From an uncultured Bacteroidota bacterium (GTDB taxonomy: Bacteria; Bacteroidota; Bacteroidia; Bacteroidales; UBA12481), in contig CAIXHD010000604.1 in NCBI GenBank assembly GCA_903919065.1, positions 1 through 35,342 of the forward strand: DNA of 35,342 bases. Direction: 5' to 3'. Positions within the stretch are counted from its first letter, which is position 1. Each line of letters opens with the position of its first letter. This document shows, one piece after another, positions 20,208 to 35,342 of this stretch. A model generated the notes under the pieces. It did no database searches, was not told the DNA's origin, and worked only from the letters and a program-made list of their open reading frames with translations. The translations under genes and the position numbers were made by a program.

Positions 20208-20285
20208 CATTTTTTCTCGTGCAAATGGTGCCGCTTATCATGTCAGTGGCTGATAAACATCATGGATGTTAAGTTTTGCCCTCTC

Positions 20286-20293
20286 TATTTTTG
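20286..20293 (+). promoter_or_regulatory. -7 promoter box TATTTTTG before the fused oxidoreductase gene
   Basis: An exact TAnnTTTG match ends 27 bp before the ATG at 20321. It supports that start over a TTG at 20276, which lies upstream of the box. No strong -33 element is visible. Confidence 0.5.
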
Positions 20294-20320
20294 AAGCCAC
20301 TAATCATACCTGATACTTCC

Positions 20321-23300
20321 ATGCTAAAAATTACGGAACATCCCATTCTGGATATCGAGATACGAAAAACCAGCGAATTCCTTTTTGAAGGAAAACCGGT
20401 GACAGGTGATATTGGCCTGACCATAGCGGCAGCCCTTCACCAGGCCGGACACCCTGTTCACAGCCATAGTCTGAGTGGCAGGAACCGGAGCCTGGAATGT
20501 GGTATCGGCAAATGTGGAGCCTGCGAAATGCTGGTCGATGGGAAAGTGAAGCGGATTTGTATTACCCGAATTGATGGAGTGAAAGAGGTCAGTGAGGTTC
20601 CGCGTGATTACAGGCCAAGTCCAACTCCTGTGGAAAAAAACACCCCAACCCGTGTTTATCGCACTACCGTTACTATAATAGGAGCAGGTCCTGCTGGTCT
20701 TGCTACGAGGGAAATTCTGAATCAGCATGGAATTGACAATCTGGTTATCGATAACAATGACCGGATCGGAGGGCAATTCCTGATGCAAACACATCAGTTT
20801 TTCTTTTTCGAAAAGGAAAAGAAATTTGGCGGTATGCGCGGTTTCGATATTGCAAAAACTCTTGCCGGAGAGAATCTCGATGGAATATTTCTTGACTCGA
20901 CTGTTTGGGATATCCTCGAAGGGAGAAGACTTGCCATAAAGAATATCAGTACACAAGAGATATATTATGTAGATACGGAATATCTGGTTATTGCTACTGG
21001 TGCTGTTCCATTCATGCCTGCTTTCGAGAATGATGATGTTCCCGGAGTATACACCGCAGCAGTGGTGCAGAAAATGATGAATACCGAGTTCACCCTGCTG
21101 GGTAAAAATATTCTCACAGTTGGTGCCGGAAACATTGGATACCTGACTTCATACCAGCTCATGCAGGCAGGTGCCAACGTGAAAGCAATTGTTGAAGCCA
21201 TGCCCCGCGAAGGAGGATTTCCTGTTCAGGCAAACCGCGTTAGGCGCCTGGGTATCCCAGTAATTCTTAATCACCTGCTTATTAAAGCCATTCCCAATGA
21301 GGACAGAACAGGAATCATTGGCGCAGTGATTGCCGAATCGGAAAATTTCCAGCCCGTTCCGGGAACTGAAAAAATTATTGAAGGAATTGATGCTATAAAT
21401 ATTTGTACCGGGCTTGTTCCTGATGATCAGCTCCTGATCAAGGGCAAAGAGGTATTTGGAAGAAAAGTCTATGGTGCCGGTGATGCAATCCGCATCGGGG
21501 AAGGTACCAGTGCAGTTTTAAGGGGAAAACAGGTTGCCTATGAATTGCTTGAAGAAATCGGGGAACGTTTTAATTATGATGAATACCTGACAATTTCTAA
21601 GGAATACATTGATAGTCAGCAGCATCCGATCAAGGTGATTGAAAAACCTGATGTTCCGGATTCAGTCAGGATGAACCAGAAAGGTTTTGTCCAGATCGAC
21701 TGTTTATATGGCTTTGCCTGTAATCCATGCGAATTTGCCTGTCCTCACGGTGCCATAACAAAAACCTCCACCAGCACAGTGCCCGAAATTGATTTCGAAA
21801 AATGCATCGGCTGCATGGATTGCGTTTACCAATGTCCGGGCCTTGCAATTTTCGGATATAACCTTAAGAAAGACTGGCTTTTTCTGCCGATTGAATATTC
21901 CACTGAAGCCGGTTCTTCAGTATTTCTGGTCGATAACGATGGAAATAAACTTGGTACGGGAGTGATCGACAAAATTCTGAAAAAACCGAACAAAACAGAT
22001 ATTGCCCGTGTCAGGTCGCTGGATATTCATGGGGAAGACCTGGTTAAAGTCAGGGGATTCATTGTTCAGGAAAAATATCCTGAGCCTCTGTTAATCCAGC
22101 CCGTTGAAATGAAAATCGAAAACCCGGTTTACGTTTGTCATTGCGATGATGTGACTTATGATGAGATACTGAAAACCATTGGCGACCGAAAATTCATTTC
22201 AGTGGATGAGATCAAACACACCACCAGGCTGGGAATGGGTGCATGTCGCGGCAAACGATGCATTAAAAGACTGAAAACAGCCCTTTACTCCAGTGGCATT
22301 CAAATCGTCGGAGACGCAACTCCCAGGGGTCCGCTGTCAAACCAGATAGAAATGGGTGAATTGTACCCGAAAGAGGTACCTGAAAAGATTAATATTATTC
22401 CTCAGGGTCGCATGCCCCGAATTCTAAAAGCAGCTTCGGTAGTCGCCGGTGGTGGAATCGGTGGATCAGCTCTCTTCCGTTATCTTTCGGAAGCAGGGCA
22501 GAAACCAGTTCTGATCAATTTCGGCCGTGGGGCATCATGGAGGAATATCGCTGGCGGACGTCCGAATTTCAGTGTACCTGAGCTTTCCGATATAGCACGG
22601 AAAAATCTGGAAATTTTCAAGGAACTGGATAAGATAAAGAATATCGATTTTCGCCCGATAGATTATGTGACCTTTGCTCACGACGATCAGATGTTTAAAG
22701 CGTTAGAGGCTTCCATGGCCTGGTCAAAAGCCGAAATGATCGGTCCTGGTGATTACAAGTCACGGATATCACCGTTTATTAACCCAAAACTTGGTCAGGA
22801 TTATCAGGCGGCACTTATCACGCACGATTGCTGGCAGGCAACCCCGGGCAGGGTTATCGACCTGGTCAGGAGGCTCGGCCTGGATAATGGAGGCACTATC
22901 TTTGAAGATTGCAAATTGATTGATGTTCACAAATCAGGTAACGAATACATCCTCCTGGTTCAGAATCACGATAAGGAATATATTGAGATACACACTCCGG
23001 TTTTCGTAAATGCCATGGGTCCTGAAGGACACAAGATCGCCCGTAAAATGGGAATTGAAACTGGCATGTATGCTGTTAAACATCAAGCATTTATTACAAG
23101 AAGATTACCCATGTTGGGCGTAGGTGGCGCACCACTGCCCATGGTTATAGATCGCCGCCGATACAAAGGATTCTCCGCAGTATATGGTCAGCAACTTGGC
23201 GAAACAGGCCAGGTCATTGGATGTGCTTCCCCTGCGACAGATCCCCAGGAGGCCGGAAAAAATCTGAAAATAAACTCTCAGGATTTCCTCGAAATAGCAT

Positions 23301-23557
23301 CAGAGATTTTCGTTAATTGGATACCAGATCTTTCATCGGTCGGATTCCAGGCAGTATGGGCCGGTTATTATGTTGAACCGCGTATGATCCTGGACCCTGA
23401 GGAAGGACTGTTCCTGGGATTACGCGGGCAAGGGTTCATGCTTGGCCAGTATCTGGCAAAAATGTATGTAGATAAACTTATGGGCCAGCCAGTTCCTGAA
23501 TATTTCGTGCAGCTATCCATGAAGGGCGACGGTTTGCCGGAAAAAGCTTTTAAATAA
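20321..23557 (+). CDS. Multi-domain iron-sulfur flavoprotein: fused HcnABC/hydroxyproline-dehydrogenase-like oxidoreductase
   Basis: This 1078-residue cytoplasmic protein joins modules that are normally separate subunits. In order: a 2Fe-2S domain (C60, C65, C68, C80); an FAD site IIGAGPAGLATREIL (119-133) and an NAD-type site TVGAGNIGYLTSYQL (266-280); a dicluster ferredoxin (C467, C470, C474 with C461 or similar; C495, C498, C501, C505); a BFD-like 2Fe-2S motif (C606, C608, C642, C647); and a DadA-like FAD amine oxidase (about 704-1065, starting VVAGGGIGGSALFRYL). Separate versions form hydrogen cyanide synthase, D-hydroxyproline dehydrogenase and archaeal dye-linked proline dehydrogenase. 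With pruA 2.4 kb upstream, oxidation of proline or hydroxyproline is the best guess; sarcosine or another secondary amine is possible. It has its own promoter. Confidence 0.85.
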   Translation: MLKITEHPILDIEIRKTSEFLFEGKPVTGDIGLTIAAALHQAGHPVHSHSLSGRNRSLECGIGKCGACEMLVDGKVKRICITRIDGVKEVSEVPRDYRPSPTPVEKNTPTRVYRTTVTIIGAGPAGLATREILNQHGIDNLVIDNNDRIGGQFLMQTHQFFFFEKEKKFGGMRGFDIAKTLAGENLDGIFLDSTVWDILEGRRLAIKNISTQEIYYVDTEYLVIATGAVPFMPAFENDDVPGVYTAAVVQKMMNTEFTLLGKNILTVGAGNIGYLTSYQLMQAGANVKAIVEAMPREGGFPVQANRVRRLGIPVILNHLLIKAIPNEDRTGIIGAVIAESENFQPVPGTEKIIEGIDAINICTGLVPDDQLLIKGKEVFGRKVYGAGDAIRIGEGTSAVLRGKQVAYELLEEIGERFNYDEYLTISKEYIDSQQHPIKVIEKPDVPDSVRMNQKGFVQIDCLYGFACNPCEFACPHGAITKTSTSTVPEIDFEKCIGCMDCVYQCPGLAIFGYNLKKDWLFLPIEYSTEAGSSVFLVDNDGNKLGTGVIDKILKKPNKTDIARVRSLDIHGEDLVKVRGFIVQEKYPEPLLIQPVEMKIENPVYVCHCDDVTYDEILKTIGDRKFISVDEIKHTTRLGMGACRGKRCIKRLKTALYSSGIQIVGDATPRGPLSNQIEMGELYPKEVPEKINIIPQGRMPRILKAASVVAGGGIGGSALFRYLSEAGQKPVLINFGRGASWRNIAGGRPNFSVPELSDIARKNLEIFKELDKIKNIDFRPIDYVTFAHDDQMFKALEASMAWSKAEMIGPGDYKSRISPFINPKLGQDYQAALITHDCWQATPGRVIDLVRRLGLDNGGTIFEDCKLIDVHKSGNEYILLVQNHDKEYIEIHTPVFVNAMGPEGHKIARKMGIETGMYAVKHQAFITRRLPMLGVGGAPLPMVIDRRRYKGFSAVYGQQLGETGQVIGCASPATDPQEAGKNLKINSQDFLEIASEIFVNWIPDLSSVGFQAVWAGYYVEPRMILDPEEGLFLGLRGQGFMLGQYLAKMYVDKLMGQPVPEYFVQLSMKGDGLPEKAFK

Positions 23558-23576
23558 CCAGAACTTTTTAGCCCGC

Positions 23577-23605
23577 GGATTGTTTAGGTTTTAAGTAAAC
23601 AATCC
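23577..23605. promoter_or_regulatory. Perfect 10-bp inverted repeat in front of the superoxide dismutase gene
   Basis: GGATTGTTTA (23577-23586) and TAAACAATCC (23596-23605) are exact reverse complements separated by 9 bp, ending 4 bp before the SOD ATG. A near-consensus TAggTTTT lies across the left arm and loop (23585-23592). It could be an operator over the promoter or a leader hairpin that hides the start codon. It lacks a T run, so it is a poor terminator for the upstream gene. Confidence 0.65.
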
Positions 23606-23609
23606 TGCA

Positions 23610-24332
23610 ATGAATAAAAGAGAATTCCTTAGAACTTCAGCCCTCCTGGGAGCCGGACTGGCTGCCGGAGTAGCCAATATCAGCCGTGGAGCAACCCCCG
23701 GTGGTTTCACTTATAATGCATCCGGACTAAACCAGGCTGGGGAATATGTACTTCCTGCCCTGCCTTATGCTTATAATGCTCTTGAGCCCTATATTGATGA
23801 GGCAACAATGAAACTTCATCACGACATTCACCATGCCAGTTATGTAAAAGGGTTGAATGCGGCAACGAAAAAAATTGCCGAGGCTTTGGACTCAGGTGAT
23901 TTCAGTTTGATCAAGCATTGGGAAAGAGAGCTTGCATTTCATGGTGCCGGCCATTTTCTCCATAACCTGTTCTGGAATAATATGGGCCCATCGGCTGGCA
24001 AAAGAAGCCAGAAGCTGGAGGATTATATCACCAAATCTTTTGGATCTTTTGACCGGTTTACTGCACTTTTTAAGCAGGCAACTACATCCGTTGAAGGCAG
24101 CGGCTGGGGAATTCTCGCCTATCAGCCAGAATCAGACCGTCTGGTAGTGTTGCAAGCCGAAAAACATCAGAACCTTACCCAATGGGTGACTACCCCGATT
24201 TTGGTATGCGATGTATGGGAACATGCTTATTACCTTAAATATCAAAATAAAAGAGCGGATTATATAACAGCATTCATGCAGGTAATAAATTGGGATGCAG
24301 TTTCGGAAAATCTTGAAAGGGCGATAAATTAA
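23610..24332 (+). CDS. Exported Fe/Mn superoxide dismutase
   Basis: A 240-residue SOD with the four metal ligands visible: His70 in MKLHHDIHHASY, His118 in HFLHNLFW, and Asp201 and His205 in CDVWEHAYYLKY. The GAGH segment before FLHNLFW resembles Mn-type enzymes, but Fe or Mn use cannot be settled here. Residues 1-30 are an extra N-terminal signal: MNKREFLRTSALLGAGLAAG resembles a Tat signal, with Lys-Arg in place of Arg-Arg. This would put the enzyme in the periplasm or outside the cell, whereas most bacterial Fe/Mn SODs are cytoplasmic. Export of a metal-loaded protein fits Tat. A perfect inverted repeat lies just before the start, and a strong terminator overlaps the stop. Confidence 0.93.
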   Translation: MNKREFLRTSALLGAGLAAGVANISRGATPGGFTYNASGLNQAGEYVLPALPYAYNALEPYIDEATMKLHHDIHHASYVKGLNAATKKIAEALDSGDFSLIKHWERELAFHGAGHFLHNLFWNNMGPSAGKRSQKLEDYITKSFGSFDRFTALFKQATTSVEGSGWGILAYQPESDRLVVLQAEKHQNLTQWVTTPILVCDVWEHAYYLKYQNKRADYITAFMQVINWDAVSENLERAIN

Positions 24333-24359
24333 AAAAGGCGGTTGGGAGCCGCCTTTTTT
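24331..24359. terminator. Terminator overlapping the SOD stop codon, possibly bidirectional
   Basis: GGCGG (24337-24341) pairs with CCGCC (24349-24353); flanking A6 (24331-24336) and T6 (24354-24359) extend the stem and give a T run in both directions. The SOD stop TAA (24330-24332) lies in its left arm. Confidence 0.9.
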
Positions 24360-24634
24360 CCAACAACACTTGTCATGTCCCCACAATCAAGAACCACCTT
24401 ACAGATAAGAAGAAGTTGAGAAAAAAGATTTGTTGCAACTAAGCCTAAAATCCCTCTATCTAATCTCTTTAATTTTTCCCTTGGTAACTTCCCTTACCTT
24501 ACCTTTTGCTCTATAAAGATACATCGCTAAAATAAAAACGACAAATCTTTTGTGTTAAATCCTTTTGGATTTGACGAATATTGGTCAAAAAGTTTCTAAC
24601 CCCAATGATTGTCTGATATTTAAAAAAAACTGTT
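24360..24634. other. Gene-free spacer with one weak hairpin
   Basis: Between the SOD terminator and the convergent nitroreductase stop I see no convincing gene, tRNA or promoter. The stretch is AT-rich. One stem-loop stands out: AAATCC (24557-24562) and GGATTT (24567-24572) around a TTTT loop, extended outward by a T-G wobble and two pairs to 24554-24575. It has no T run. Short open frames on the minus strand over the SOD end look like shadows. Confidence 0.5.
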
Positions 24635-25213
24635 TTATGACACTTTGGGGAAAATCAGAATCTCATCCATGGCTCTCTTCGGAACATGATGCGTCTGTTC
24701 CAGATCGCGCCAATAGCGAATATTACCATCTTTAACCTCTTCTACCACCACCCTTTCAACTGGTTTACCAAGTGCTATAACCAATAAAATCTCCAGATGT
24801 CCGGGTATTTGAAAAAGTGAGCGCACCTCCTCACGGCGGATGGACCCGATCATGCAACCACCAAAATTGTTCTCAATGGCACCCAATAAAATGGTTTGAG
24901 CACATATTCCGAGATCAATCTCAAATTTCGCACCCAAAAGGGTATCTCCCAAAATAATAATATAAGCTGTTGGCTGCTCATTTTTGACAGGCCCATCCCA
25001 CTCTTTCAGGTATCCTGCCCAGGCAAGAAATGGAAATAATTGATCACAATCATCCGGTTTGGTAATTGGCATAAACTTAAGCGCCTGCTGATTCCTGCCG
25101 GAAGGACATAACCGGGCTAACCCGATAAGTTTTTCGACAGTTTTTGCAGGAACTTTTATTTTACCGTTGAACCTTCTATTACTGCGGTTTTTTAAGACTA
25201 ATTCAGCTAACAT
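24635..25213 (-). CDS. Nitroreductase-family FMN protein
   Basis: A 192-residue nitroreductase-like protein. It has the N-terminal FMN-binding KNRSNRRFNGK (about 8-18, family pattern RRSxRxF), CPSGRNQQALKF (about 36-47), the mid-protein DLGICAQTILLGAIENNFGG and GCMIGSIRREEVRSLF helix, and the LLVIALGKPVE strand. These enzymes use FMN and NAD(P)H to reduce nitro groups, quinones or flavins; the natural substrate is unknown. ATG 25213 is used because the longer frame starts with TTG inside the divergent promoter region. It is transcribed away from the corrinoid operon, 49 bp between starts, so the two may share regulation. A flavin reductase that helps activate the corrinoid is conceivable but unsupported. 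Confidence 0.85.
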   Translation of the reverse strand: MLAELVLKNRSNRRFNGKIKVPAKTVEKLIGLARLCPSGRNQQALKFMPITKPDDCDQLFPFLAWAGYLKEWDGPVKNEQPTAYIIILGDTLLGAKFEIDLGICAQTILLGAIENNFGGCMIGSIRREEVRSLFQIPGHLEILLVIALGKPVERVVVEEVKDGNIRYWRDLEQTHHVPKRAMDEILIFPKVS

Positions 25214-25230
25214 ATCTAGTGAAGGATTTA

Positions 25231-25238
25231 TATATTTG
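25231..25238 (+). promoter_or_regulatory. -7 promoter box TATATTTG of the corrinoid methyltransferase operon
   Basis: An exact TAnnTTTG match ends 24 bp before the ATG at 25263, within the 49-bp divergent gap. There is no room for a cobalamin riboswitch between this box and the start. Confidence 0.5.
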
Positions 25239-25262
25239 TCATCAATCAAAATTTTGATCAAT

Positions 25263-25934
25263 ATGAACCCTGAAGAATTGCTTGCTAAGATCGCAAATTG
25301 CGTTGAAAGAGGTAAAGTTAATAAAACATCCCCCTACCCACCTGATTTAAAAGGGCAGGATGGCGCCGATGAACTTAGTGCCCAAGCACTGGTTGAAGGC
25401 ATAGCTGCCGATCAGGTTCTGAGCCTTGGCCTTGTTCCCGGCATGCAGATTGTCGGGGTAAAGTTCCGCGAAAACAAAGTATTCGTGCCGGAAGTTCTCA
25501 TGGCCGCAAAAGCAATGAGTGCCGGGATGAAGCACCTCAAACCATATTTCACGTCGGGTGCTGTAAAACGCAAGGGGATATTCATAATAGGTACCGTCAT
25601 GGGCGACCTTCATGATATCGGAAAAAATTTGCTGGGTATGATAGTTGAAGGTGCAGGATGGCAGGTTGTTGACTTGGGAATTGATGTTCCCGCAGCCAAA
25701 TTCATTGCTGCAGTCGACGAGTACCCGGGTGCATATGTTGGGTTAAGCTGCCTGCTTACTACCACTATGTTGAACATGGAGAAAATCGTAACTGAAATGA
25801 AAGCTGCCCGTCCGGATACAAAAATCCTCATCGGCGGAGCCCCTGTTACCGATGATTTCCGCAAACGCATCGGTGCTGACTGGTATTCACCGGATCCTCA
25901 GGGAGCTGTTGAATTCCTGAATAAAGTCGGATAA
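25263..25934 (+). CDS. Corrinoid (methyl-carrier) protein, MtaC/MtbC/MttC-like
   Basis: A 223-residue cobalamin-binding protein. Residues about 1-95 form the helical cap (MNPEELLAKI; LSLGLVPGMQIVGVKFRENKVFVPEVLMAAKAM, over two helices). The C-terminal Rossmann-like domain has the base-off signature D115-x-H117-x-x-G120 in MGDLHDIGKNL, SCLLTTTM in the middle and GGAPVT near the end; His117 is the predicted lower cobalt ligand. It should shuttle a methyl group between a substrate methyltransferase and an acceptor in the cytoplasm. ATG 25263 is preferred because the longer frame would run through the divergent promoter. It is the first gene of five tightly packed ones; the next starts 1 bp after its stop. 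Confidence 0.93.
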   Translation: MNPEELLAKIANCVERGKVNKTSPYPPDLKGQDGADELSAQALVEGIAADQVLSLGLVPGMQIVGVKFRENKVFVPEVLMAAKAMSAGMKHLKPYFTSGAVKRKGIFIIGTVMGDLHDIGKNLLGMIVEGAGWQVVDLGIDVPAAKFIAAVDEYPGAYVGLSCLLTTTMLNMEKIVTEMKAARPDTKILIGGAPVTDDFRKRIGADWYSPDPQGAVEFLNKVG

Positions 25935-25935
25935 T

Positions 25936-27009
25936 ATGCCTGCCACACCCCGGGAAAACCTTATCCGGGCCGCACGCCGGCAGGGATTCGATTGGATTCC
26001 TATCGATATACTTCTGTGTGACTCGCAAATTGAAGCCTTTAAGAAAACTTACGGAGATATCGATTATTTCGATTGGTTCGGTGTGGATTTCCGTTGGGTA
26101 ACGCTTACCGAACACCCGGGTTACCAAAATGGCCGTGAGCTTTACATCAGGGAAATACTTCCTCCGGATACAGAAATTGATGTAATCGGAGTCGGCCATT
26201 CAAAAGGTTCCGAAGCTGCCTATCATATGACCCGGATGCATCATCCCCTGCAAGGCAGCGATTCAATTCAGGAAATCCGGAATTTTCCAATGCCCGTATT
26301 TAACAGAGAGGAAAACCAACCACTTTTCGACCAGGTAAACTCTCTGCACCAAAAAGGATTGGCTGCCATGTGTGCCATGCAGATGACTATCTGGGAAGCT
26401 GCCTGGTATATTCGTTCGATGCCTGACCTTCTCATGGATATGATGCTCGAGGATGAAAAAGCCACTGTTCTTCTGGATCGCATTACCGAATATGCAATAC
26501 GGAGAGTAAAACTCTACACCGAAGCTGGTGTTGACATTATATCAATGGGAGATGACGTTGGAATGCAAAGCGGCCCCATGATGAGTGTCGAACTATGGGA
26601 ACAGTGGATCAAACCCCGTTTTAAAAGCGTTATTGATGCTGCACGCTTGATTAATCCTGAAGTGTTGGTCTTTTATCATTCATGTGGCGATGCAACTGCT
26701 TTTATTCCCGGCCTCATCGATTGCGGAGTTGACATCCTGAATCCGATCCAGCCGGAATGTATGGATTACAGCAAAATCCATGAGCAATACAGCGATAAGC
26801 TTTCTTTTTGGGGGACCCTCGGAACTCAACAATTGTTGCCTTTTGGAACGGCTGAGCAGGTAAGGGAAGTTTCCATCGACCGTATCCGCTCTGCCGGAAC
26901 CAAAGGCGGCCTCATCCTCGGACCTACCCATCTGGTGGAGCCGGAAGTACCATTTGAAAATCTCGTGGCAATGAAAAATGCCGCACTCGAACTTTTTCCA
27001 AGAATCTGA
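25936..27009 (+). CDS. Uroporphyrinogen decarboxylase-family methyltransferase
   Basis: A 357-residue TIM-barrel protein of the UroD family. It is not haem-pathway UroD: instead of that enzyme's N-terminal active-site residues it has the YHSCGD motif (His248-x-Cys250), the His-x-Cys zinc motif of MtaA/MtbA-type corrinoid methyltransferases. The family's third ligand Cys is replaced by GPTHLVEPEVPFENL. It most likely moves a methyl group from a small substrate to the corrinoid protein encoded 1 bp upstream; the methyl donor cannot be read from the sequence. A variant of this type without PGC is common among substrate-side UroD methyltransferases, while its neighbour keeps the PGC form. Confidence 0.85.
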   Translation: MPATPRENLIRAARRQGFDWIPIDILLCDSQIEAFKKTYGDIDYFDWFGVDFRWVTLTEHPGYQNGRELYIREILPPDTEIDVIGVGHSKGSEAAYHMTRMHHPLQGSDSIQEIRNFPMPVFNREENQPLFDQVNSLHQKGLAAMCAMQMTIWEAAWYIRSMPDLLMDMMLEDEKATVLLDRITEYAIRRVKLYTEAGVDIISMGDDVGMQSGPMMSVELWEQWIKPRFKSVIDAARLINPEVLVFYHSCGDATAFIPGLIDCGVDILNPIQPECMDYSKIHEQYSDKLSFWGTLGTQQLLPFGTAEQVREVSIDRIRSAGTKGGLILGPTHLVEPEVPFENLVAMKNAALELFPRI

Positions 27010-27011
27010 TT

Positions 27012-28634
27012 ATGAAAGGTAAAGATCTGGTTTTGCATGCCCTTAAAGGTGGGCAGTGTTCTACTATTCCATGGGTTCCCTTTGTAGGTGTCCATGGTGG
27101 TCATCTGATCGGAAAAAATGCAAACGAATATCTGCATTCAGCTGATTTAATGGTGAATGGGATCAGTAAGGCCATTGAACTATATGAACCTGACGGTATC
27201 CCTGTATGTTTTGATCTCCAGATCGAAGCTGAAGCACTCGGTTGCAAGCTGGGATGGGCCGATGAGAATCCTCCGGCAGTACTTTCCCACCCTCTCTCCG
27301 GGCTTAGTAATATCAGCAGCCTTAACCCGATTTCGCCCGATCAGGGAAGAATACCTGTGGTTCTTAAAGCAACCCGGGAGCTGAGAAAAAAATATCCGGA
27401 TATAGCCCTTTATGGCCTGGTAACCGGACCGTTTACCCTTGGACTCCACTTGTTGGGTACCGAGATATTCATGAGAATGTTCGAAGATCCTGCATCCATT
27501 CATGAACTTCTTGATTTCACCTCCGGGGTTACCCGGTCAATGTCAAAATATTTACTGGATGCTGGTTGCGATATCATCGCAGTAGTGGATCCGATGACCT
27601 CGCAGATCGGCCCCGACCAATTCACCGAGTTCATTCACAAACCCGTCAAATCTGTTTTTGACGATATCCGTCAGCAAAGCAAATACAGTTCGTTTTTTGT
27701 ATGTGGACATGCGCAGCAAAATATCGATGTCATGTGTAAAACCGGACCCGATAATATCTCGATCGATGAAAATATTCCTTTGGATTTTGTAAGAAATATT
27801 TGCCAGGGTTATGGAATTAGTTTCGGCGGTAATTTGCAGCTGACATTGGTTATGCTCATGGGAACACCTGAAGATTGTCAGCGAAATGCTGTGGACTGCA
27901 TGGATATTGCCGGAAATATTGGATTCATTCTGGCCCCCGGTTGCGATCTGCCAATGAAAACTCCAATAGCCAATCTCAAGGCTGTTGGCAGCGTTATCAG
28001 AGACTCTTATCAACAGGACATTATCAGAACGCTGGAACACAAACCTGACAAAACCAAGATTTTGAATCTTGGCGAATATGGGAAGACTGATCGGGTTATT
28101 GTCGATATTATTACCCTTGATTCAGAATCCTGTGCTCCCTGCCAATATATGGTTGAGGCTGTTAAGGAGGTAGCTCCCCATTTCGAGGGTTTAGTGGAAT
28201 GGCATGAGCATTCTATAAAAAACCTCGAAGGAGTGACTTTCATGTCGTCCCTTTTTGTTAAAAATATTCCAACCATCTGCATCGACGGAAAAATCACTTT
28301 TGTCTCACAAATTCCGCCACGTAATGAGCTAATTCGAGCCATCCAAAGCAGGATCAATGAGAAACTCAAAATCAGGCTACGGGTTAAGCAAGGCGAAATT
28401 CTCCTTCTTGGAAAATCATCAGAAGAGATCGCACCACTGCGCGAAAAAACACGTCAGGCTATAGCAGAGCTTGGCGTTACCATTGAAGTTCGCGAAGAAA
28501 CCGACCCCCTGATCATTCAATCTCTCGGCGTTACTCAAACCCCGGCGCTGGTTTCGGTTAAGTACAAAATTCGCAGCGAAGCCGGTCAACCCGGCACAGA
28601 TGTTATTAAAGAATGGATCAAGGAAATCATCTGA
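27012..28634 (+). CDS. MtaA-like methyltransferase fused to two thioredoxin-like domains
   Basis: A 540-residue fusion. Residues 1-345 are a UroD/MtaA-type barrel (start KDLVLHALKGGQ; GLVTGPFTLGLHLLG near 135-149; FILAPGCDLPMKTPIANLKA at 305-324). Two zinc Cys are present, Cys231 and Cys311, but the His two residues before the first Cys is Phe229 (FFVCGH); His233 might substitute. Residues 362-445 form a thioredoxin fold with the active site Cys374-Ala-Pro-Cys377 and cis-Pro420 (VKNIPTICIDG). Residues 458-540 form a second such fold with cis-Pro511 (TQTPALVSV) but no Cys pair. It starts 2 bp after the previous gene and overlaps the next by 22 bp. Redox activation of the corrinoid or of the zinc thiolates is a plausible but unproven role. 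Confidence 0.85.
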   Translation: MKGKDLVLHALKGGQCSTIPWVPFVGVHGGHLIGKNANEYLHSADLMVNGISKAIELYEPDGIPVCFDLQIEAEALGCKLGWADENPPAVLSHPLSGLSNISSLNPISPDQGRIPVVLKATRELRKKYPDIALYGLVTGPFTLGLHLLGTEIFMRMFEDPASIHELLDFTSGVTRSMSKYLLDAGCDIIAVVDPMTSQIGPDQFTEFIHKPVKSVFDDIRQQSKYSSFFVCGHAQQNIDVMCKTGPDNISIDENIPLDFVRNICQGYGISFGGNLQLTLVMLMGTPEDCQRNAVDCMDIAGNIGFILAPGCDLPMKTPIANLKAVGSVIRDSYQQDIIRTLEHKPDKTKILNLGEYGKTDRVIVDIITLDSESCAPCQYMVEAVKEVAPHFEGLVEWHEHSIKNLEGVTFMSSLFVKNIPTICIDGKITFVSQIPPRNELIRAIQSRINEKLKIRLRVKQGEILLLGKSSEEIAPLREKTRQAIAELGVTIEVREETDPLIIQSLGVTQTPALVSVKYKIRSEAGQPGTDVIKEWIKEII

Positions 28635-29599
28635 AAAAAATTCCATTTATCCTTGTAACCGGATTCCTCGGAAGCGGGAAAACTTCGCTGTTACTGGATT
28701 TTGTCCGGAAATATTCCGATAGGATGCGAATCGCATTGATCCAGAACGAATTCGCACCCGGCCATGTTGATGGATTCACTTTAAAACAAACCGGCAAGCC
28801 CTTTGAGCTGCTGGAAATAAATAATGGCAGTGTTTTTTGTGCCTGCCTGCTTGGTGACTTTATTTCCCGTCTTGAACCGTTCATTGACCAACATCATCCG
28901 GATGTTATTCTGCTTGAAGCCACTGGCCTGGCCGATCCGGTTTCCCTTGGACAAGTGCTGCAAGCACCCGGGTTGTCTGATAAAATTTACCTGGCTGGTT
29001 CCTGGTGCCTGTTGGATGCACTCAATTTTCAACGGGTCATTCAATCCATTTCCCGCGCACGCCATCAGATTAGAATTGCAGATGTTGTTTTGATTAATAA
29101 AATTGATCTTATCCACGGTACCTCCGAAATCCGTGCAAAAATTCTTGAGATTAACCCCTTTGCAAAAATCATCGAAACCACCTTCGGAAACATTGATGAA
29201 CTCCATTTATTAGATTTACTAAATTTCGCCTCTAAGAAGTGTCATCCCGACGAACGTCGGGACCCCGTTCCTAACCACGAAATTCCCGATGGAAACATTT
29301 CAGAACCCCGCCCTAACCTTTCCTCCTGCGTTGTCCGCTCAACTCGCTATTTCGATGAAGGGCTGGTACGAGATTTCATCCTGCAGCATTCTCAATACCT
29401 GCATCGCTTAAAAGGCTATATTCGTATTGATGAATCTAATACAATGGCTATTCAAACTGTCTTTACCCAAATTTCTATTACAATTGTATCCGGATATGAA
29501 GGACCGTGCGAAATCATTGCCATCGGTCCGAACCTGGATAACAGGGAATTTTCTAAACAGCTATTATCACTGAAGAAAAATGAAAACAAAACTCACTGA
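28613..29599 (+). CDS. COG0523 (CobW/P47K) GTPase, possible metal or cofactor chaperone
   Basis: A 328-residue G3E GTPase. Walker A is GFLGSGKTSLL (17-27), Walker B/switch II is LEATGLADP (101-109), and the guanine-specificity motif NKID is at 162-165. The usual metal-binding CxCC is altered: NNGSVFCACLLGDF, with Cys76 and Cys78. The C-terminal CobW_C-like domain follows (YLHRLKGYIRIDE). The linker between domains contains an inserted palindromic repeat, giving CHPDERRDPVP (about 210-220). COG0523 proteins deliver zinc, cobalt or other metals, or aid cobalamin enzymes. Here it sits among zinc-dependent methyltransferases and a corrinoid protein, so loading or reactivating those is likely. It overlaps the flanking genes by 22 and 20 bp. 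Confidence 0.85.
   Translation: MDQGNHLKKIPFILVTGFLGSGKTSLLLDFVRKYSDRMRIALIQNEFAPGHVDGFTLKQTGKPFELLEINNGSVFCACLLGDFISRLEPFIDQHHPDVILLEATGLADPVSLGQVLQAPGLSDKIYLAGSWCLLDALNFQRVIQSISRARHQIRIADVVLINKIDLIHGTSEIRAKILEINPFAKIIETTFGNIDELHLLDLLNFASKKCHPDERRDPVPNHEIPDGNISEPRPNLSSCVVRSTRYFDEGLVRDFILQHSQYLHRLKGYIRIDESNTMAIQTVFTQISITIVSGYEGPCEIIAIGPNLDNREFSKQLLSLKKNENKTH
29245..29262. repeat. Palindromic repeat inserted in the COG0523 GTPase gene
   Basis: TCCCGACG (29245-29252) and CGTCGGGA (29255-29262) are perfect arms around AA. It is GC-rich compared with its surroundings and encodes HPDERRDP in the interdomain linker. Such palindromes occur dispersed in many bacterial genomes and sometimes lie in frame within genes. 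Confidence 0.7.
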
Positions 29600-30464
29600 A
29601 CGACTGATTAAAGGCGAAATCATTATATCTGATGGAGCATTGGGAACCATGTTGCAGGAAGCCGGACTGGAACCTGGAGTTTGTCCTGAAATCTGGAATG
29701 CTGAATTTCCAGATCGGGTTGAAAAAATAGCTAGGGCATATTCCGAGGCTGGTTCACAAGCCGTGGAAACTAATACTTTTGGTGCCAACCGGTTTAAACT
29801 TAGTCATTACGGGCTGCAGGACAGAGTGGCTGAACTTAACAGAAAAGCCGTGGAGATTACCCGAAGGGCTGTTGGTCCGGATGGAATTGTTCTTGGATCG
29901 GTAGGGCCGACCGGAATTCTTCTGATGATGGGTGATGTTAGCGAAGAGGAGCTTTATGAAGCTTTTAAAGAGCAATGTGTTGCTCTTGCTGAAGCCGGCG
30001 CTGATGTTATTTGCATAGAGACAATGACAGCAATGGACGAAGCAACACTTGCAATAAGAGCGGCAAAGGAAAACACCTCTCTAGAGGTGATTTGTACCAT
30101 GACCTTTGATAAAACCATTCAGGGGGATTTCCGAACCATGATGGGCATATCCCCTGAAGATATGACCATTGCACTAAAATCGGCAGGCGCTGATATTGTT
30201 GGAACAAATTGTGGGAATGGAATGGAAAACATGATCGCAATTGTTGAAGAAATCCGCCGTACTGATCCGTTGATACCAATCCTTGTGCATGCCAATGCCG
30301 GAAAACCTCATTTCCACGATGGGAAAAACATATTTGATGAAACACCAGATATCACTGCCTCTTTCGTCCCAAGCCTGATTAAGGCAGGCGCCACCTGCAT
30401 CGGAGGTTGCTGCGGAACAACACCGGAGCATATCAGGAAAATGAAGCAAATCGTAAATATTTAA
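29580..30464 (+). CDS. Homocysteine S-methyltransferase domain protein (MetH N-terminal type)
   Basis: A 294-residue protein equal to the homocysteine-binding barrel of cobalamin-dependent methionine synthase. The zinc ligands are Cys211 in GTNCGNG and Cys277-Cys278 in IGGCCGTTPEHI. The N-terminal ISDGALGTMLQEAGL (17-31) and ETNTFGAN (63-70) are typical. It should transfer the methyl group from the methylated corrinoid protein to homocysteine, giving methionine. The cobalamin, folate and activation domains of MetH are absent, so it must work with the separate corrinoid protein of the same operon. It overlaps the GTPase gene by 20 bp, and its stop codon overlaps the stop of the convergent adhesin-like gene. 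Confidence 0.93.
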   Translation: MKTKLTERLIKGEIIISDGALGTMLQEAGLEPGVCPEIWNAEFPDRVEKIARAYSEAGSQAVETNTFGANRFKLSHYGLQDRVAELNRKAVEITRRAVGPDGIVLGSVGPTGILLMMGDVSEEELYEAFKEQCVALAEAGADVICIETMTAMDEATLAIRAAKENTSLEVICTMTFDKTIQGDFRTMMGISPEDMTIALKSAGADIVGTNCGNGMENMIAIVEEIRRTDPLIPILVHANAGKPHFHDGKNIFDETPDITASFVPSLIKAGATCIGGCCGTTPEHIRKMKQIVNI

Positions 30465-33400
30465 TACCCGCACTTTATTATAGCTAATCGTTCAGCTCTT
30501 CCCTGATATAGCATCCTCACAAAATAAACTCCTTTTTGTGCATTATGGGATCTCCATATCACGAAGTTTGTGCCCCGGTTGAATTCGGTTTGATCTATTT
30601 GGCCAATTTCCCGTCCAACTATATCGTAAACCTGGAGAATTACCAGTCCGGCTTCAGGCAGATTAAACTCAATGGTTGTTTGATAATTAAAGGGATTGGG
30701 AAAGTTTCGCAGCTTCAGATCATAATTGACTGGATCAGGAAGAAAATCAACTCCTGATGACTTTTCAACAATTATGGTAACGATTCCTTGATCGCAGCTT
30801 GTCGGGTTCAGTATTTCACAAACCTGGTAAACTAATGTATATGTGCCAGAAATTGCATTTTCCGCTACAACAACCGAAGTTCCCTGCAGCTTGATTTTGT
30901 CACTTGAGGAATTCACAAAAGTCAGAGTAACCTTGGTTGCATCAATCACAGAGGATCCGTACTTATCATTGGACAAAACGTTTATAACAGCAATGCCTCC
31001 CTGACCTTCCATAACATCACCATGATCATCAACAACATCCAGTAACAAAGATGGACCGGAATTGAGAACGGGCACTATTATAGACGCAGTTGCACAATTG
31101 CCTGGAGACAACTTATCGCAGATCTGGTAAACCAGTGTATAAACCCCGGTTGGAGTCTCCGGATCAACAATAACATCGGGTCCCGACAATCTGACCTTCG
31201 GACTGGTGGAACTCACCATTGACAAGTTCACCAGATCAAGAGTAGCATTGGAGCAAGTTGAAGCATCGTTTGATAAAATGTTTACTACAGATACACCTCC
31301 ATAAAACCCGTTAATAATCACGCCTTCATCATCAATTGCGACAATTCTACTTGGTAATTGAAGAATTACTGCCTCTCTGGACTCTGATACGCATCCGTTA
31401 CTGGTTTGAGCTGTGACATAATAAGTTCCAGGCTCCAGGCTATTAAAAGAAGTGTAATTCTGATAAAGAATTCCATTAATACTGTAGGTCATGCCGGTTC
31501 CTATCGGTCCGGTAATCTCGATGGTACCAGTGGGTTTATTACAGTCAGGTTGTATAGAATAGAATGTCGGTGTAGCAGGAGGAGAATTTATCTCAGCATA
31601 GGTTACAGCCGTTAATGAAGATAATAAATAATTATCAGCATCAGGTCCACTCAGTGCCAGCCCTGTGGCAATCACTATCTTATCTGTACCTGGTTCTGAA
31701 TCAATAAAATTGGCTGCTCCCACTTCCAGGCTAACCAAATCCGGGGAAATTACTCCCATAGCCATTTGATTTATTAGGGTAGCCGTCGTTAATCCATCAT
31801 AACATTTACTCGATGCCGATATAAATGAAGTTATTGGAAATCTTGAGATAGTGTAAACAAGTGTCGCATTTCCGGTACCACTCGGATTGGTTGCTCCCAA
31901 ATAAATATTGTATATTCCTGCTGGTGTTTTTGCAGAAATTGAAATCAAACCGGTGCCATTATCAATGGTTATATCAGAAGGTAATCCACTGGCGATAAAG
32001 CTGGTTGGCATACCGGAGGCCGTTATTTGATAAGTTGATCCGGAACCATAGGTAGAGCCGCCGATCAGGTTGCTCGTTATAACAGGAGGAGTTTCATTGA
32101 TGATCAGTCTTACTTGCGTTCTTGCTGCGCTGATACAACCAGTAGTAGTGTTTCTGGCTTGTGCCCAGGCACTATAGGTACCCGCATTTTTTTCCAAAGG
32201 TGCTGTCGCTTCTATTCCGCCTGTAGAAAATGCGTACCAATCGACAACTTCTCCAGCCGATACGTTTGCGGTGGCGGTATGCAATAATCCATCGTAAGCT
32301 ACCATAACACTATTGGCAATTGGTTCTGATGGTATGGGATTCAACGTTACTTTCACCGGTGTACGTGTTAAACTTGTGCAATTTGATCTTATACTTCTTG
32401 CCTCTGCGTAAAAGACTCCCGGTTTCGTTGGCGTGTAACTCGAACTGGCAGTTAAAACAGGCGTACCACCAGTTAAATCCTCATACCAATCAACGGTATT
32501 TCCATCATCTACCGTTACCCGAATTGGAGCAATTGCATTACCTGAACAATATTCCTGGTCACCACTGCTTATCGGAAGAGCCACTATTGGGCAAATACAT
32601 ACCGGAGCAACAACAGTTAACTGGCTTAGGCAACCATTATCAGCTGTAACGGTGGCAGTCAAATCGGTTCCAGCTGAAATACCAGATATTTTCCAGATGT
32701 TTTCTGATTCGTTCACTACCACTCCGGCTGTGGAACGAACGGTACCAGCATTAACAGCTATTAAAACAGAATAAGTCAGGTAATCATCAGAACAGGTTGG
32801 TGGAGTATGAATCGTGATGGTTGGAAGAGGATATATATTTGCTGTAGTGGTTTTTTCTATTTCCGCCAAAGAATAATTATCAACCCCAAGTCCTTTAATA
32901 GTTAATCCTTGTGCTGCAACTACTTTGCCGATTCCGGGAGTTGCATCGATAAAATTAACATTGGTTGCTTCGAGAGTCAGCACATCAGGTGAAACCACTC
33001 CTAAAAGAGTCAACATATTAAGCGTGGCAAGTGTATTGCCATCGAAGCATTTACTGTCAGCTGCAATCATTGGGGTCACAACCGCCTTGTTAATAATAAA
33101 TTTCCCTGCCGTAAAATTCAGCCTGTAATTAGCATTCAAGGAAAGGGTTCCCTGGCTGATTTCATATTCACCCACATTTTCTCCCTGTTCGCGGTTCAGG
33201 GAACCGACAAAACTGTCGCTGTTTTTTAATTCCGGGAAATAGGTAAAGATTAGCGAAGGATCTTCTTCCCCATATTTTTTGGTTTTGGCTTCAGCGGTGA
33301 CATCCACACTTACCGGGCTAACAGTGTAATGCAGAATATTGCTTCCGGTGCCGGTAGCGTTTGTTGCTGAAAGAATTATATCAAAATCTCCGGCCACAAC

Positions 33401-35342
33401 ATTTGATGCTATTTGAATCAATCCTGTTGACGTTTCGACAGACATCCCGGCAGGTAATCGCTCCACAGCAAAGCTGGTTGGACTATTGGTCGCTAAAATC
33501 TGATATGTTGATGAACTTCCATAAAAAGAACTTGCAGTAAGTGAGCTGATGACAATCGGAAAACCCAGAGTCACCTGGAGTGTTCCTTTAATATAATCAA
33601 CGGAATAATTAGACAAACCAGACCCAACTGCATCCGTAACTACAATATCATAAGGTCCGGCAGGCGCTGTGGAAGAAGCTCCTGTACTGGCAATTGCAAC
33701 CCCTGAAACTATATCGGAATTGATCAACCCTGAAACAGCAAACTCCGTTCCGGTAAAAGTGTAAGAAACGCCAAACTCTTTATTGAAGCTGTTGGCAGTA
33801 ATAGCCAGTGGTTTTGGCTGGATGGTAATAGCACCCGAAGAGAATTCAAAGTCATAGTTAACTGCCATCAACGTTCCAATACTTGCATTTATACTTACCG
33901 GACCTGAAGTCACCTGGGTCAAATTCGAATAACTGGTTGCAATTTCAGGAGATCCTGCAACAGAAGATAATTCCGTTTCATTATTCACAAAACCACTCAG
34001 CGTGAAGGACAGTTGAGGAATTGCATCACCATAGGTAACAATCTGGCTACCTGCCGTTACCTGAAGATGTGCTTTACTGATTACAAAACCTAAGGCTGAA
34101 GAGCTAGCTTCTGTGTAATTTGTATCTTCAGTCACTTTCGCAATTACCTGATAGTTACCGGTATTGAAAGGTGCTGATGAAGTGGGTCCATAAACAGTGT
34201 TTTCTGTTCCGGAATAGATAAAGGTAATTGATCCTTCAGATCCTGTCACTGTAGCTGATGCCGGACCTTGTTCACGACCCGTATAGGTAAAAGCTGTCAA
34301 CCCTGACACGGAAATAACTGAGACAGCCCGGCCTATTGACAAAACGACCTGAGTTCTGTTAGCACTTACATATCCGGTGGTGGTATTTCTCGCTTCAGCC
34401 CAAGCAGTGTAAATAGCTGATATTATTCCACTTGGAGCAGTTGTAATACTACCACCGGATGAGGCAGAATACCAGTCAACTATTTCGCCAGAAGCAACAG
34501 TTGCAGAAGCAGAATGTAATAAGCCATCGTAAGTGGCTGTGGAATTATTGGCAATTGGAGCAGCTGGTATGTTGGGCTCAAATATCGCTGAAATTGATTT
34601 ATCAGCATCCATCGTCACCTGGATAGTTTCTGAATTTCCGGTAGCATCACCGCTCCAAAGTGAAAAATGATATCCTTCTCCCGATGTCACTGTTAACTCT
34701 ACATTTGAGCCCGCCAAATAAGACAATTGATCCGGATTCCTTCTGATAGTTCCATTTACCGCTATTGTGCTTAATGCGTAACTGTTCACCGACCACTGCG
34801 CATACAGGGTAATGGCGCCGGTGATGGTGATATTGGCTCCATTGACATAGGCCGTTCCTGATCCGTTGGCCTGGGTGTTCCAGCCGGTAAAGCTGTAACC
34901 GGTTTTCGTGTAGGTGTTGCTGGTCAGTGGGGTCGAAACACTGTAAACGATGCTTTGATTGCTCATCGTCCCGCTGCCGGTATTTGAATCAAAAGTCACA
35001 TCGTAACTGTTGGTTGACCACTGCGCATACAGCGTGATGGCGCCGGTGATGGTGATATTTGATCCGTTGACATAGGCGGTTCCCGATCCGTTGGCCTGGG
35101 TGTTCCAGCCGGTAAAGCTGTAACCGCTTTTCGTGTAGGTGTTGCTGGTCAGTGGGGTCGAAACATTATAGACGATGCTTTGATTACTCATCGTCCCGCT
35201 GCCGGTATTTGAATCAAAAGTCACATCGTAACTGTTCACCGACCACTGCGCATACAGGGTAATGGCGCCGGTGATGGTGATATTGGCTCCATTGACATAG
35301 GCCGTTCCCGATCCGTTGGCCTGGGTGTTCCAGCCGGTAAAG
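30461..35342 (-). CDS. Giant T9SS-exported adhesin-like protein, N-terminus cut by window edge
   Basis: At least 1626 residues; the frame is open to the window end, so the start is outside. From the N-terminal side: InlB B-type repeats of 75 residues (GYSFTGWNTQANGSGTAYVN, ITLYAQWS), a divergent InlB repeat (VELTVTSGEGYHFSLWSGDA), Ig-like YDGLLHSATA-type domains, MBG domains (VTYGDAIPQLSFTLSGF; KYGEEDPSLIF), He_PIG-like Ig domains, two YDG domains (SKCFDGNTLATL; SKCYDGLTTATL), two domains with NGFYGGVSVVNILSNDAS or similar, and a C-terminal T9SS type A sorting domain (FPNPFNYQTTIEFNLPEAG; VYDIVGREI; KGVYFVRM). It should pass the outer membrane by T9SS and be anchored or released. A role in adhesion is inferred from the domains. 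Confidence 0.9.
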   Translation of the reverse strand, partial: FTGWNTQANGSGTAYVNGANITITGAITLYAQWSVNSYDVTFDSNTGSGTMSNQSIVYNVSTPLTSNTYTKSGYSFTGWNTQANGSGTAYVNGSNITITGAITLYAQWSTNSYDVTFDSNTGSGTMSNQSIVYSVSTPLTSNTYTKTGYSFTGWNTQANGSGTAYVNGANITITGAITLYAQWSVNSYALSTIAVNGTIRRNPDQLSYLAGSNVELTVTSGEGYHFSLWSGDATGNSETIQVTMDADKSISAIFEPNIPAAPIANNSTATYDGLLHSASATVASGEIVDWYSASSGGSITTAPSGIISAIYTAWAEARNTTTGYVSANRTQVVLSIGRAVSVISVSGLTAFTYTGREQGPASATVTGSEGSITFIYSGTENTVYGPTSSAPFNTGNYQVIAKVTEDTNYTEASSSALGFVISKAHLQVTAGSQIVTYGDAIPQLSFTLSGFVNNETELSSVAGSPEIATSYSNLTQVTSGPVSINASIGTLMAVNYDFEFSSGAITIQPKPLAITANSFNKEFGVSYTFTGTEFAVSGLINSDIVSGVAIASTGASSTAPAGPYDIVVTDAVGSGLSNYSVDYIKGTLQVTLGFPIVISSLTASSFYGSSSTYQILATNSPTSFAVERLPAGMSVETSTGLIQIASNVVAGDFDIILSATNATGTGSNILHYTVSPVSVDVTAEAKTKKYGEEDPSLIFTYFPELKNSDSFVGSLNREQGENVGEYEISQGTLSLNANYRLNFTAGKFIINKAVVTPMIAADSKCFDGNTLATLNMLTLLGVVSPDVLTLEATNVNFIDATPGIGKVVAAQGLTIKGLGVDNYSLAEIEKTTTANIYPLPTITIHTPPTCSDDYLTYSVLIAVNAGTVRSTAGVVVNESENIWKISGISAGTDLTATVTADNGCLSQLTVVAPVCICPIVALPISSGDQEYCSGNAIAPIRVTVDDGNTVDWYEDLTGGTPVLTASSSYTPTKPGVFYAEARSIRSNCTSLTRTPVKVTLNPIPSEPIANSVMVAYDGLLHTATANVSAGEVVDWYAFSTGGIEATAPLEKNAGTYSAWAQARNTTTGCISAARTQVRLIINETPPVITSNLIGGSTYGSGSTYQITASGMPTSFIASGLPSDITIDNGTGLISISAKTPAGIYNIYLGATNPSGTGNATLVYTISRFPITSFISASSKCYDGLTTATLINQMAMGVISPDLVSLEVGAANFIDSEPGTDKIVIATGLALSGPDADNYLLSSLTAVTYAEINSPPATPTFYSIQPDCNKPTGTIEITGPIGTGMTYSINGILYQNYTSFNSLEPGTYYVTAQTSNGCVSESREAVILQLPSRIVAIDDEGVIINGFYGGVSVVNILSNDASTCSNATLDLVNLSMVSSTSPKVRLSGPDVIVDPETPTGVYTLVYQICDKLSPGNCATASIIVPVLNSGPSLLLDVVDDHGDVMEGQGGIAVINVLSNDKYGSSVIDATKVTLTFVNSSSDKIKLQGTSVVVAENAISGTYTLVYQVCEILNPTSCDQGIVTIIVEKSSGVDFLPDPVNYDLKLRNFPNPFNYQTTIEFNLPEAGLVILQVYDIVGREIGQIDQTEFNRGTNFVIWRSHNAQKGVYFVRMLYQGRAERLAIIKCGY
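34791..35342. repeat. 225-bp tandem DNA repeats coding for InlB-type repeats
   Basis: Units begin at 34791, 35016 and 35241 (exact 225-bp steps, 75 codons); the third is cut by the edge. Over its visible 102 bp, unit 3 differs from unit 1 at a single position, while unit 2 differs from both at several, so the order is A-B-A. The array continues beyond the window. Confidence 0.92.

Follow-up and report, generated by a model that had tools for sequence, protein, structure and literature searches.

Organisation of the five-gene locus

The window analysed here, meaning the whole stretch of DNA of 35,342 nucleotides, originates from an uncultured Bacteroidota bacterium (GTDB lineage Bacteroidales; UBA12481) and constitutes one contig (C604; CAIXHD010000604.1) of a draft genome of 5.46 Mb in 621 contigs. 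Five open reading frames (ORFs) on the + strand, designated A to E, were found to span positions 25263-30464, and their products are read here as a probable corrinoid relay, in which a methyl group would pass from a UroD-type enzyme to the corrinoid protein A and from there, through E, to homocysteine. The ORFs are as follows:

25263..25934, + strand: A, 223 aa, Pfam B12-binding_2 and B12-binding
25936..27009, + strand: B, 357 aa, Pfam URO-D
27012..28634, + strand: C, 540 aa, Pfam URO-D and Thioredoxin_3
28613..29599, + strand: D, 328 aa, Pfam cobW and CobW_C
29580..30464, + strand: E, 294 aa, Pfam S-methyl_trans (238 bits)

ORFs A and B are separated by 1 bp and B and C by 2 bp, with C overlapping D by 22 bp and D overlapping E by 20 bp. 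A sequence-only reading of the window had described these five genes and their families, with gaps of 1-2 bp and overlaps of 20-22 bp, and had noted that the stretch holds no activator gene; the ORF coordinates and Pfam matches agree with it on the former, and neither a RACE gene nor a MetH activation domain was found in the window. The 22-nt overlap of C and D recurs in several phyla. As the ATG of D (28613) falls inside the codons of a conserved Glu-Trp, the overlap alone is weak evidence for translational coupling.

Corrinoid protein A and the UroD-type protein B

The models closest to A in NCBIfam were found to be those of MtgC/MtbC, the top match being MtgC_2 (189 bits, cut-off 370). The corrinoid-ligand motif DLHDIGK is kept, with D115, L116, H117, D118, I119, G120 and K121 each conserved in at least 97% of 52 sequences, and A is predicted from this to be a stand-alone methyl carrier of the MtgC/MtbC kind. 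Other corrinoid proteins identified in the draft genome were MetH, one weak match below the cut-off and one protein on contig C359, which was discounted as a methyl carrier given its location in a sensor-kinase/FIST cluster. The only corrinoid proteins found in a congener (99% complete) were MetH and A. Thus, no stand-alone methyl carrier other than A appears to be encoded in either genome.

B matched URO-D, with weak matches to MtaA and CmuA in NCBIfam. Within the UroD superfamily, a His-Cys-Cys zinc site has been associated with methyltransferases acting on sulfur or selenium, and substituted sites with O-demethylases (Kountz and Balskus, PMC10418091). Neither UroD protein of the operon carries the complete site. 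The family of B has H248, C250 and H332, in that the HSC motif is kept and (T/S)H replaces the third cysteine, and C has Phe229-Cys231-Cys311 in 79/79 sequences. By this rule, B resembles a hard-atom demethylase in its residues and C appears unusual. An orthologue of B (55% identity) adjoins A in a Chitinivibrionales metagenome-assembled genome (MAG). B is dispensable and absent from most orthologous clusters, among them two in which C directly follows A. It is likely to be the methyl-donor-side (MT1) enzyme of the clade of the window.

The UroD-thioredoxin fusion C

The AlphaFold model of C (mean pLDDT, the predicted local distance difference test, 87) consists of an MtaA-type barrel followed by two thioredoxin folds, for which the following parts were delimited:

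27012..28031, + strand: residues 1-340, MtaA-like UroD barrel without the zinc-site His
28092..28373, + strand: residues 361-454, first thioredoxin fold (Pfam Thioredoxin_3, NCBIfam HUIPC thioredoxin, secondary structure)
28131..28142, + strand: CAPC redox/thiol motif, C374 and C377, invariant in 79/79 sequences
28383..28628, + strand: residues 458-539, second, cysteine-free thioredoxin-like fold (AlphaFold model, TIGR00412 match)

The nearest solved fold to the barrel was that of MtaA (PDB 4ay7; TM score 0.91 by target length, 1.9 A, 23% identity), and MtaA-type matches in NCBIfam were stronger for C than for B. When C was aligned to 4ay7, Phe229 was located at the zinc His of the HxC motif, with Cys231, Glu253 and Cys311 retained; F229 (79/79), C231, E253 and C311 are all invariant among 79 sequences of C. 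The retention of these three MtaA active-site residues suggests that C is catalytic. The first thioredoxin fold matched PDB 1nho (E-value 1.5e-4). The second, whose TIGR00412 match is ArsE/MTH895-like, is missing in some Bacteroidota orthologues (four loci). From these comparisons, C appears to be an MtaA-like protein that has gained two thioredoxin folds and lost the zinc His of its barrel, an architecture without a name in NCBIfam or in the papers searched.

The GTPase D and the homocysteine methyltransferase E

Metal motifs of COG0523 proteins are typically of the form GCxCC. In D, the Walker A motif GxxGxGKT is kept and the metal motif is reduced to CxC within the sequence GSVFCxCL, N70, G72, S73, F75, C76 and C78 being conserved in at least 97% of 67 sequences. 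D is accordingly classed by sequence as a putative COG0523/CobW G3E GTPase of a CxC type.

The zinc cysteines of E (Cys211, Cys277 and Cys278) were found to be conserved in at least 97% of 46 sequences. Its top PDB match was MetH of T. maritima (1q7m, E-value 4e-50), followed by betaine-homocysteine methyltransferase (BHMT; 2e-19) and the homocysteine S-methyltransferase 5dml (3e-16). E is predicted on these grounds to be a stand-alone homocysteine S-methyltransferase equivalent to the N-terminal barrel of MetH.

Distribution and gene order among relatives

Orthologues of C were identified in 15 of 149 related genomes selected by order and family. No orthologue was found in 296 Bacteroidota genomes drawn across the phylum, in which only distant UroD proteins were detected. 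A profile-guided scan of a species-level genome collection matched 443 stretches, of which 426 encode a relative of C, and the best 80 of the 426 were compared in detail. By record labels, these 80 place C in at least nine phyla, including Bacteroidota, Planctomycetota, Lentisphaerota, Fibrobacterota, Calditrichota, Spirochaetota, Sumerlaeota and Raymondiibacteriota, with one MAG labelled Chlamydiota and the unranked groups KSB1 and SAR324; most C-bearing genomes are MAGs, and individual phylum labels may be wrong. Named strains encoding C were Mariniphaga sediminis, M. anaerophila and Draconibacterium aestuarii.

Thirty-one loci extend for 6 kb or more on both sides of C. Of these, 29 contain D, 25 A, 19 E, 15 a further UroD gene and 12 a stand-alone MetH activation domain. 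The genus and family of the window retain the order A-B-C-D-E. The common order in other Bacteroidota is A-(UroD)-C-E-D-activator, while the Mariniphaga and Draconibacterium isolates have an A-C-E-D cluster with the activator elsewhere in the genome, and the order C-D-A-UroD-E-activator, with additional UroD proteins nearby, was seen in two MAGs, one of KSB1 and one unclassified. E was found linked to the cluster in separate parts of the C tree and in varying gene orders. Pairwise protein distances were correlated among the components A, C, D, E and activator (r 0.78-0.90; the maximum of 500 permutations was 0.37). C and D thus form a constant core, with B variable, and the five-gene arrangement is far beyond chance, its order being conserved in the genus and family and its core recurring across phyla. 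At four Mariniphaga and Draconibacterium loci, a succinate dehydrogenase/fumarate reductase operon (cytochrome b558, flavoprotein and iron-sulfur subunit) was observed 3' of D, following A-C-E-D.

Reductive activation and MetH

The draft genome has a single RACE-type activator, encoded on contig C503 and made up of ferredoxin, middle and ASKHA domains. The sequence-only reading had advised a check of the genome for RACE and a full MetH, and both are present, full-length MetH being encoded on contig C573 as an open frame of 1263 aa; a second short S-methyl_trans protein lies at a contig end. Full-length MetH was also found in most C-positive relatives, and the idea that the operon replaces MetH was rejected for this reason. 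Two relatives (loci L143 and L157; G457:C78 and G464:C161) have 805-aa open frames with B12-binding_2 and a sole PF02965 protein that adjoins E, which suggests that these frames are MetH without its activation domain.

Relatives were found to carry an extra gene adjoining A, C, D and E, whose product is a stand-alone MetH activation domain (PF02965) that has an RxSPGY motif and, at the C terminus, three conserved cysteines. A specific profile did not detect this protein in the family of the window, where the domain of MetH itself was the sole match. Of 42 C-positive genomes, RACE alone was found in 16, the activation-domain protein alone in 14, both in 11 and neither in one (weak partial activation-domain hits being scored as absent), and the sole genome with neither is an 80% complete MAG. 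The single genome observed compares with six expected under independence (Fisher p 0.001, an indicative value as the 42 genomes are related). RACE lies within the gene cluster itself at three loci. This complementarity speaks for a conventional reductive activator being required by A, and against C and D in that role. The suggestion of the sequence-only reading that the thioredoxin fusion and the GTPase stand in for the activator is weakened in consequence, since 41/42 C-positive genomes have RACE and/or the stand-alone activation domain.

UroD paralogues and sugar-related genes

Sixteen URO-D proteins were identified in the draft genome, B and C included, and the HxCG motif is kept in more than half of 14 paralogues. 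These paralogues often adjoin genes for GH123, GH43 and GH20, arabinofuranosidase, sulfatase or an N-acetylglucosamine (GlcNAc) epimerase with a sugar transporter. Such loci were observed on seven contigs (C24, C23, C306, C206, C125, C147 and C363), where sugar regulators also adjoin and most of the UroD proteins have HxCG. The UroD paralogues linked to sugar genes may be methyl-sugar demethylases. Two C loci adjoin genes for rhamnose isomerase, rhamnosidase and UroD, in that L-rhamnose isomerase, UroD, alpha-rhamnosidase and C occur in a single gene run (L164:5092-11629 and L169:277-7239), and rhamnosidases and RhaT were found among the neighbours of other C loci. Methyl-sugar demethylation is taken as no more than a circumstantial lead to the donor, as the genome is carbohydrate-rich.

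Neighbouring genes and regulatory elements

Upstream of the operon are a divergent nitroreductase-family gene, a gene for an Fe/Mn superoxide dismutase and a gene for a SoxA/BFD/DAO-like flavoprotein of 1093 aa (Pfam). The first of these is as follows:

24635..25261, - strand: nitroreductase-family flavoprotein (Pfam Nitroreductase), divergent from A, role uncertain

The nitroreductase gene adjoins A at six loci of relatives, a synteny restricted to the family of the window. The flavoprotein (20276-23557) consists of a SoxA-like part (2Fe-2S, pyridine-nucleotide oxidoreductase, 4Fe-4S and BFD) fused to a DAO domain; it is 77-92% identical and syntenic 5' of A across this family (four loci), and is perhaps an N-methyl-amino-acid, proline or opine dehydrogenase. 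The superoxide dismutase (23610-24332) has a leader-like N terminus (MNKREFLRTSALLGAGLAAG), which suggests that it may be exported. Positions 30461-35239 (- strand) encode a repetitive protein of 1592 aa with tandem repeats such as YDVTFDSNTGSGTMSNQ...GYSFTGWNTQANGSGT and a C-terminal tail resembling a secretion signal, and this protein is probably secreted.

A riboswitch scan detected no cobalamin or S-adenosylmethionine (SAM) riboswitch near the operon, and the six relatives scanned yielded a single cobalamin riboswitch, at L157, some 4 kb upstream of C. Promoter and terminator scans of the operon gave results at chance level.

Comparison with known corrinoid systems

The sequence-only reading held that known corrinoid systems pass methyl groups to coenzyme M (CoM) or folate, which overlooks the split methionine synthase (PMC5764234, PMC12478193) and MesA-C (PMC7857596). 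In Ruegeria and Phaeobacter, MtgC is common to a demethylase and the homocysteine methyltransferase MtgE (PMC12478193, PMC5764234), and MesA-C are folate-independent methionine synthases predicted to draw on corrinoid proteins (PMC7857596). Transfer from a corrinoid protein to homocysteine therefore has precedent.

The operon shares with MtgBCDE (split methionine synthase/glycine-betaine methyltransferase) the families of A and E, a stand-alone corrinoid protein and homocysteine methyltransferase, and separate activator proteins. Several features of a split methionine synthase were identified, namely a homocysteine barrel with zinc cysteines (E), a separate B12-binding module with DxHxxG (A) and a reductive activator (RACE on another contig, PF02965 in the clusters of relatives), but not the pterin module. 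PF00809, which represents that module, was absent among eight scanned window proteins (20276-30464) and among the 25 most frequent families listed for 66 neighbours in relatives, and the MttB-family donor enzyme (PF06253) was likewise absent among the eight. The window stretch thus differs from MtgBCDE in that no pterin-binding MtgD or MttB-type MtgB was found, and also in its UroD-type donor-side enzymes, a C-D pair without counterpart and the presence of full-length MetH in addition.

In Type 1 mlp clusters (PMC10418091), as in the operon, UroD-superfamily proteins related to MtaA/MtbA occur with a stand-alone corrinoid protein, and a folate methylase is absent. The operon departs from them in its RACE, which is encoded elsewhere in the genome, in the additional D and E, and in C, which has no zinc His and carries two fused thioredoxin folds. 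MesA, MesB and MesC, predicted to make methionine from methyl-corrinoid proteins without folate, are MetE-like, whereas E belongs to the MetH-type barrels (PF02574) and has a corrinoid protein encoded in its own cluster. MtaA (4ay7) shares the N-terminal fold of C and the metal-site Cys, Glu and Cys, but C has Phe for the zinc His (79/79) and thioredoxin extensions, and CoM is not expected as a substrate. Related systems only, and not this gene set, were described in the literature searched, and the operon is best regarded as a variant of corrinoid methyl transfer whose constant core is uncharacterised.

Proposed function and alternative explanations

The gene content, conserved linkage, conserved residues and folds are established; each step of methyl transfer, the donor, and what C and D do are inferred. 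A corrinoid relay from a UroD-type enzyme through A and E to homocysteine, accompanied by the C-D core, is favoured with a probability of roughly 0.55. UroD-type enzymes (B in the window, with probable counterparts in the rest of its genome, and other UroD homologues in relatives) would move a methyl group from a donor onto Co(I)-A, and E would pass it from methyl-A to homocysteine, giving methionine with no folate step. For the rescue of oxidised A, the genome of the window would rely on RACE encoded elsewhere, and most relatives on the stand-alone MetH activation domain. C is probably a thiol-type methyltransferase (S, Se or a similar soft atom) with A as corrinoid partner, its attached thioredoxin fold supplying or reducing the thiol, and D is probably a metal-delivering or gating GTPase that serves C.

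Two parts of the sequence-only interpretation are upheld. Its gene order extends beyond one strain, given the orthologues of C in 15/149 genomes and a core across at least nine phyla, and its route from the corrinoid protein to homocysteine is supported by the clustering of E and the activation domain with A, C and D across unrelated lineages and in varying orders. A self-contained pathway, as it had proposed, is not supported, with RACE and full-length MetH located elsewhere in the genome and B dispensable, and neither is an activator role for the thioredoxin fusion and GTPase.

Some observations weigh against the relay. Many loci of Planctomycetota, Lentisphaerota and Calditrichota have C-D without E or A nearby. 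The chemistry of C may differ from that of thiol methyltransferases, which carry the zinc His. Methionine need not be the purpose of the operon, since full-length MetH is encoded in this genome and in most relatives; the module would operate alongside ordinary MetH rather than replace it, and may serve the cell in disposing of methyl groups or salvaging them rather than in supplying methionine.

A module akin to the Type 1 mlp clusters, in which a methylated sulfur or selenium donor would reach A via C or another UroD protein (c10-type), is rather unlikely to be the right description. C and its c10-type UroD partners are MtaA-like, of the branch that holds the S/Se methyltransferases (PMC10418091), the thioredoxin fold of C is related to the HUIPC selenoprotein family, and methyl recycling to methionine is proposed in PMC10418091 itself; yet RACE, a core gene of mlp clusters, lies outside the locus, the His-Cys-Cys site of C is without its His, B has His at the third Cys position and no selenium gene was seen near the window. 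The persistence of C-D, the most constant pair (29/31), without A or E nearby would also fit a separate ancient unit for metal- or thiol-handling corrinoid maintenance, for example the repair or reactivation of Co(II) or thiol-blocked corrinoid, with B and E as donor and acceptor add-ons. A thioredoxin fold and a G3E GTPase both suit a helper, but with an activator already present in all but one of the C-positive genomes, and with the active-site residues of MtaA kept in C, such a unit has a small chance of being correct.

It is very improbable that E acts alone as a betaine- or S-methylmethionine-dependent homocysteine methyltransferase among unrelated neighbours. The PRK07534 "betaine-homocysteine methyltransferase" model does match E (248 bits), under its cut-off of 338, but the structures of BHMT and of the stand-alone homocysteine S-methyltransferase match far worse than MetH, related proteins form the homocysteine module of the split methionine synthase (PMC5764234, PMC12478193), and the linkage of E with A and the MetH activation domain is repeated. 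Least probable of all is metalloid or organometal detoxification, whereby the barrel cysteines and CAPC of C would bind and demethylate methylated arsenic or mercury, with the methyl group passing to A. The ArsE-like match of the second thioredoxin fold and the Glu-Cys-Cys site without His are consistent with it, but ars and mer families were absent among annotated neighbours and top neighbour families.

A broader form of the relay can be put forward tentatively, as possible rather than probable, namely a new corrinoid methyl-transfer system of many anaerobic phyla, in which UroD demethylases acting on methylated sugars or similar compounds in polysaccharide degraders would feed A and then E around a C-D core.

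Families annotated as "uroporphyrinogen decarboxylase", "CobW" and "betaine-homocysteine methyltransferase" are joined here into one recurring module. Its function is testable, given its occurrence in the cultivable Mariniphaga and Draconibacterium as well as in many uncultured anaerobes. If the proposed relay is true, these bacteria would be able to bring methyl groups from the environment into methionine without folate, through UroD-type enzymes, and a corrinoid methyltransferase would be added to the clients of COG0523 GTPases.

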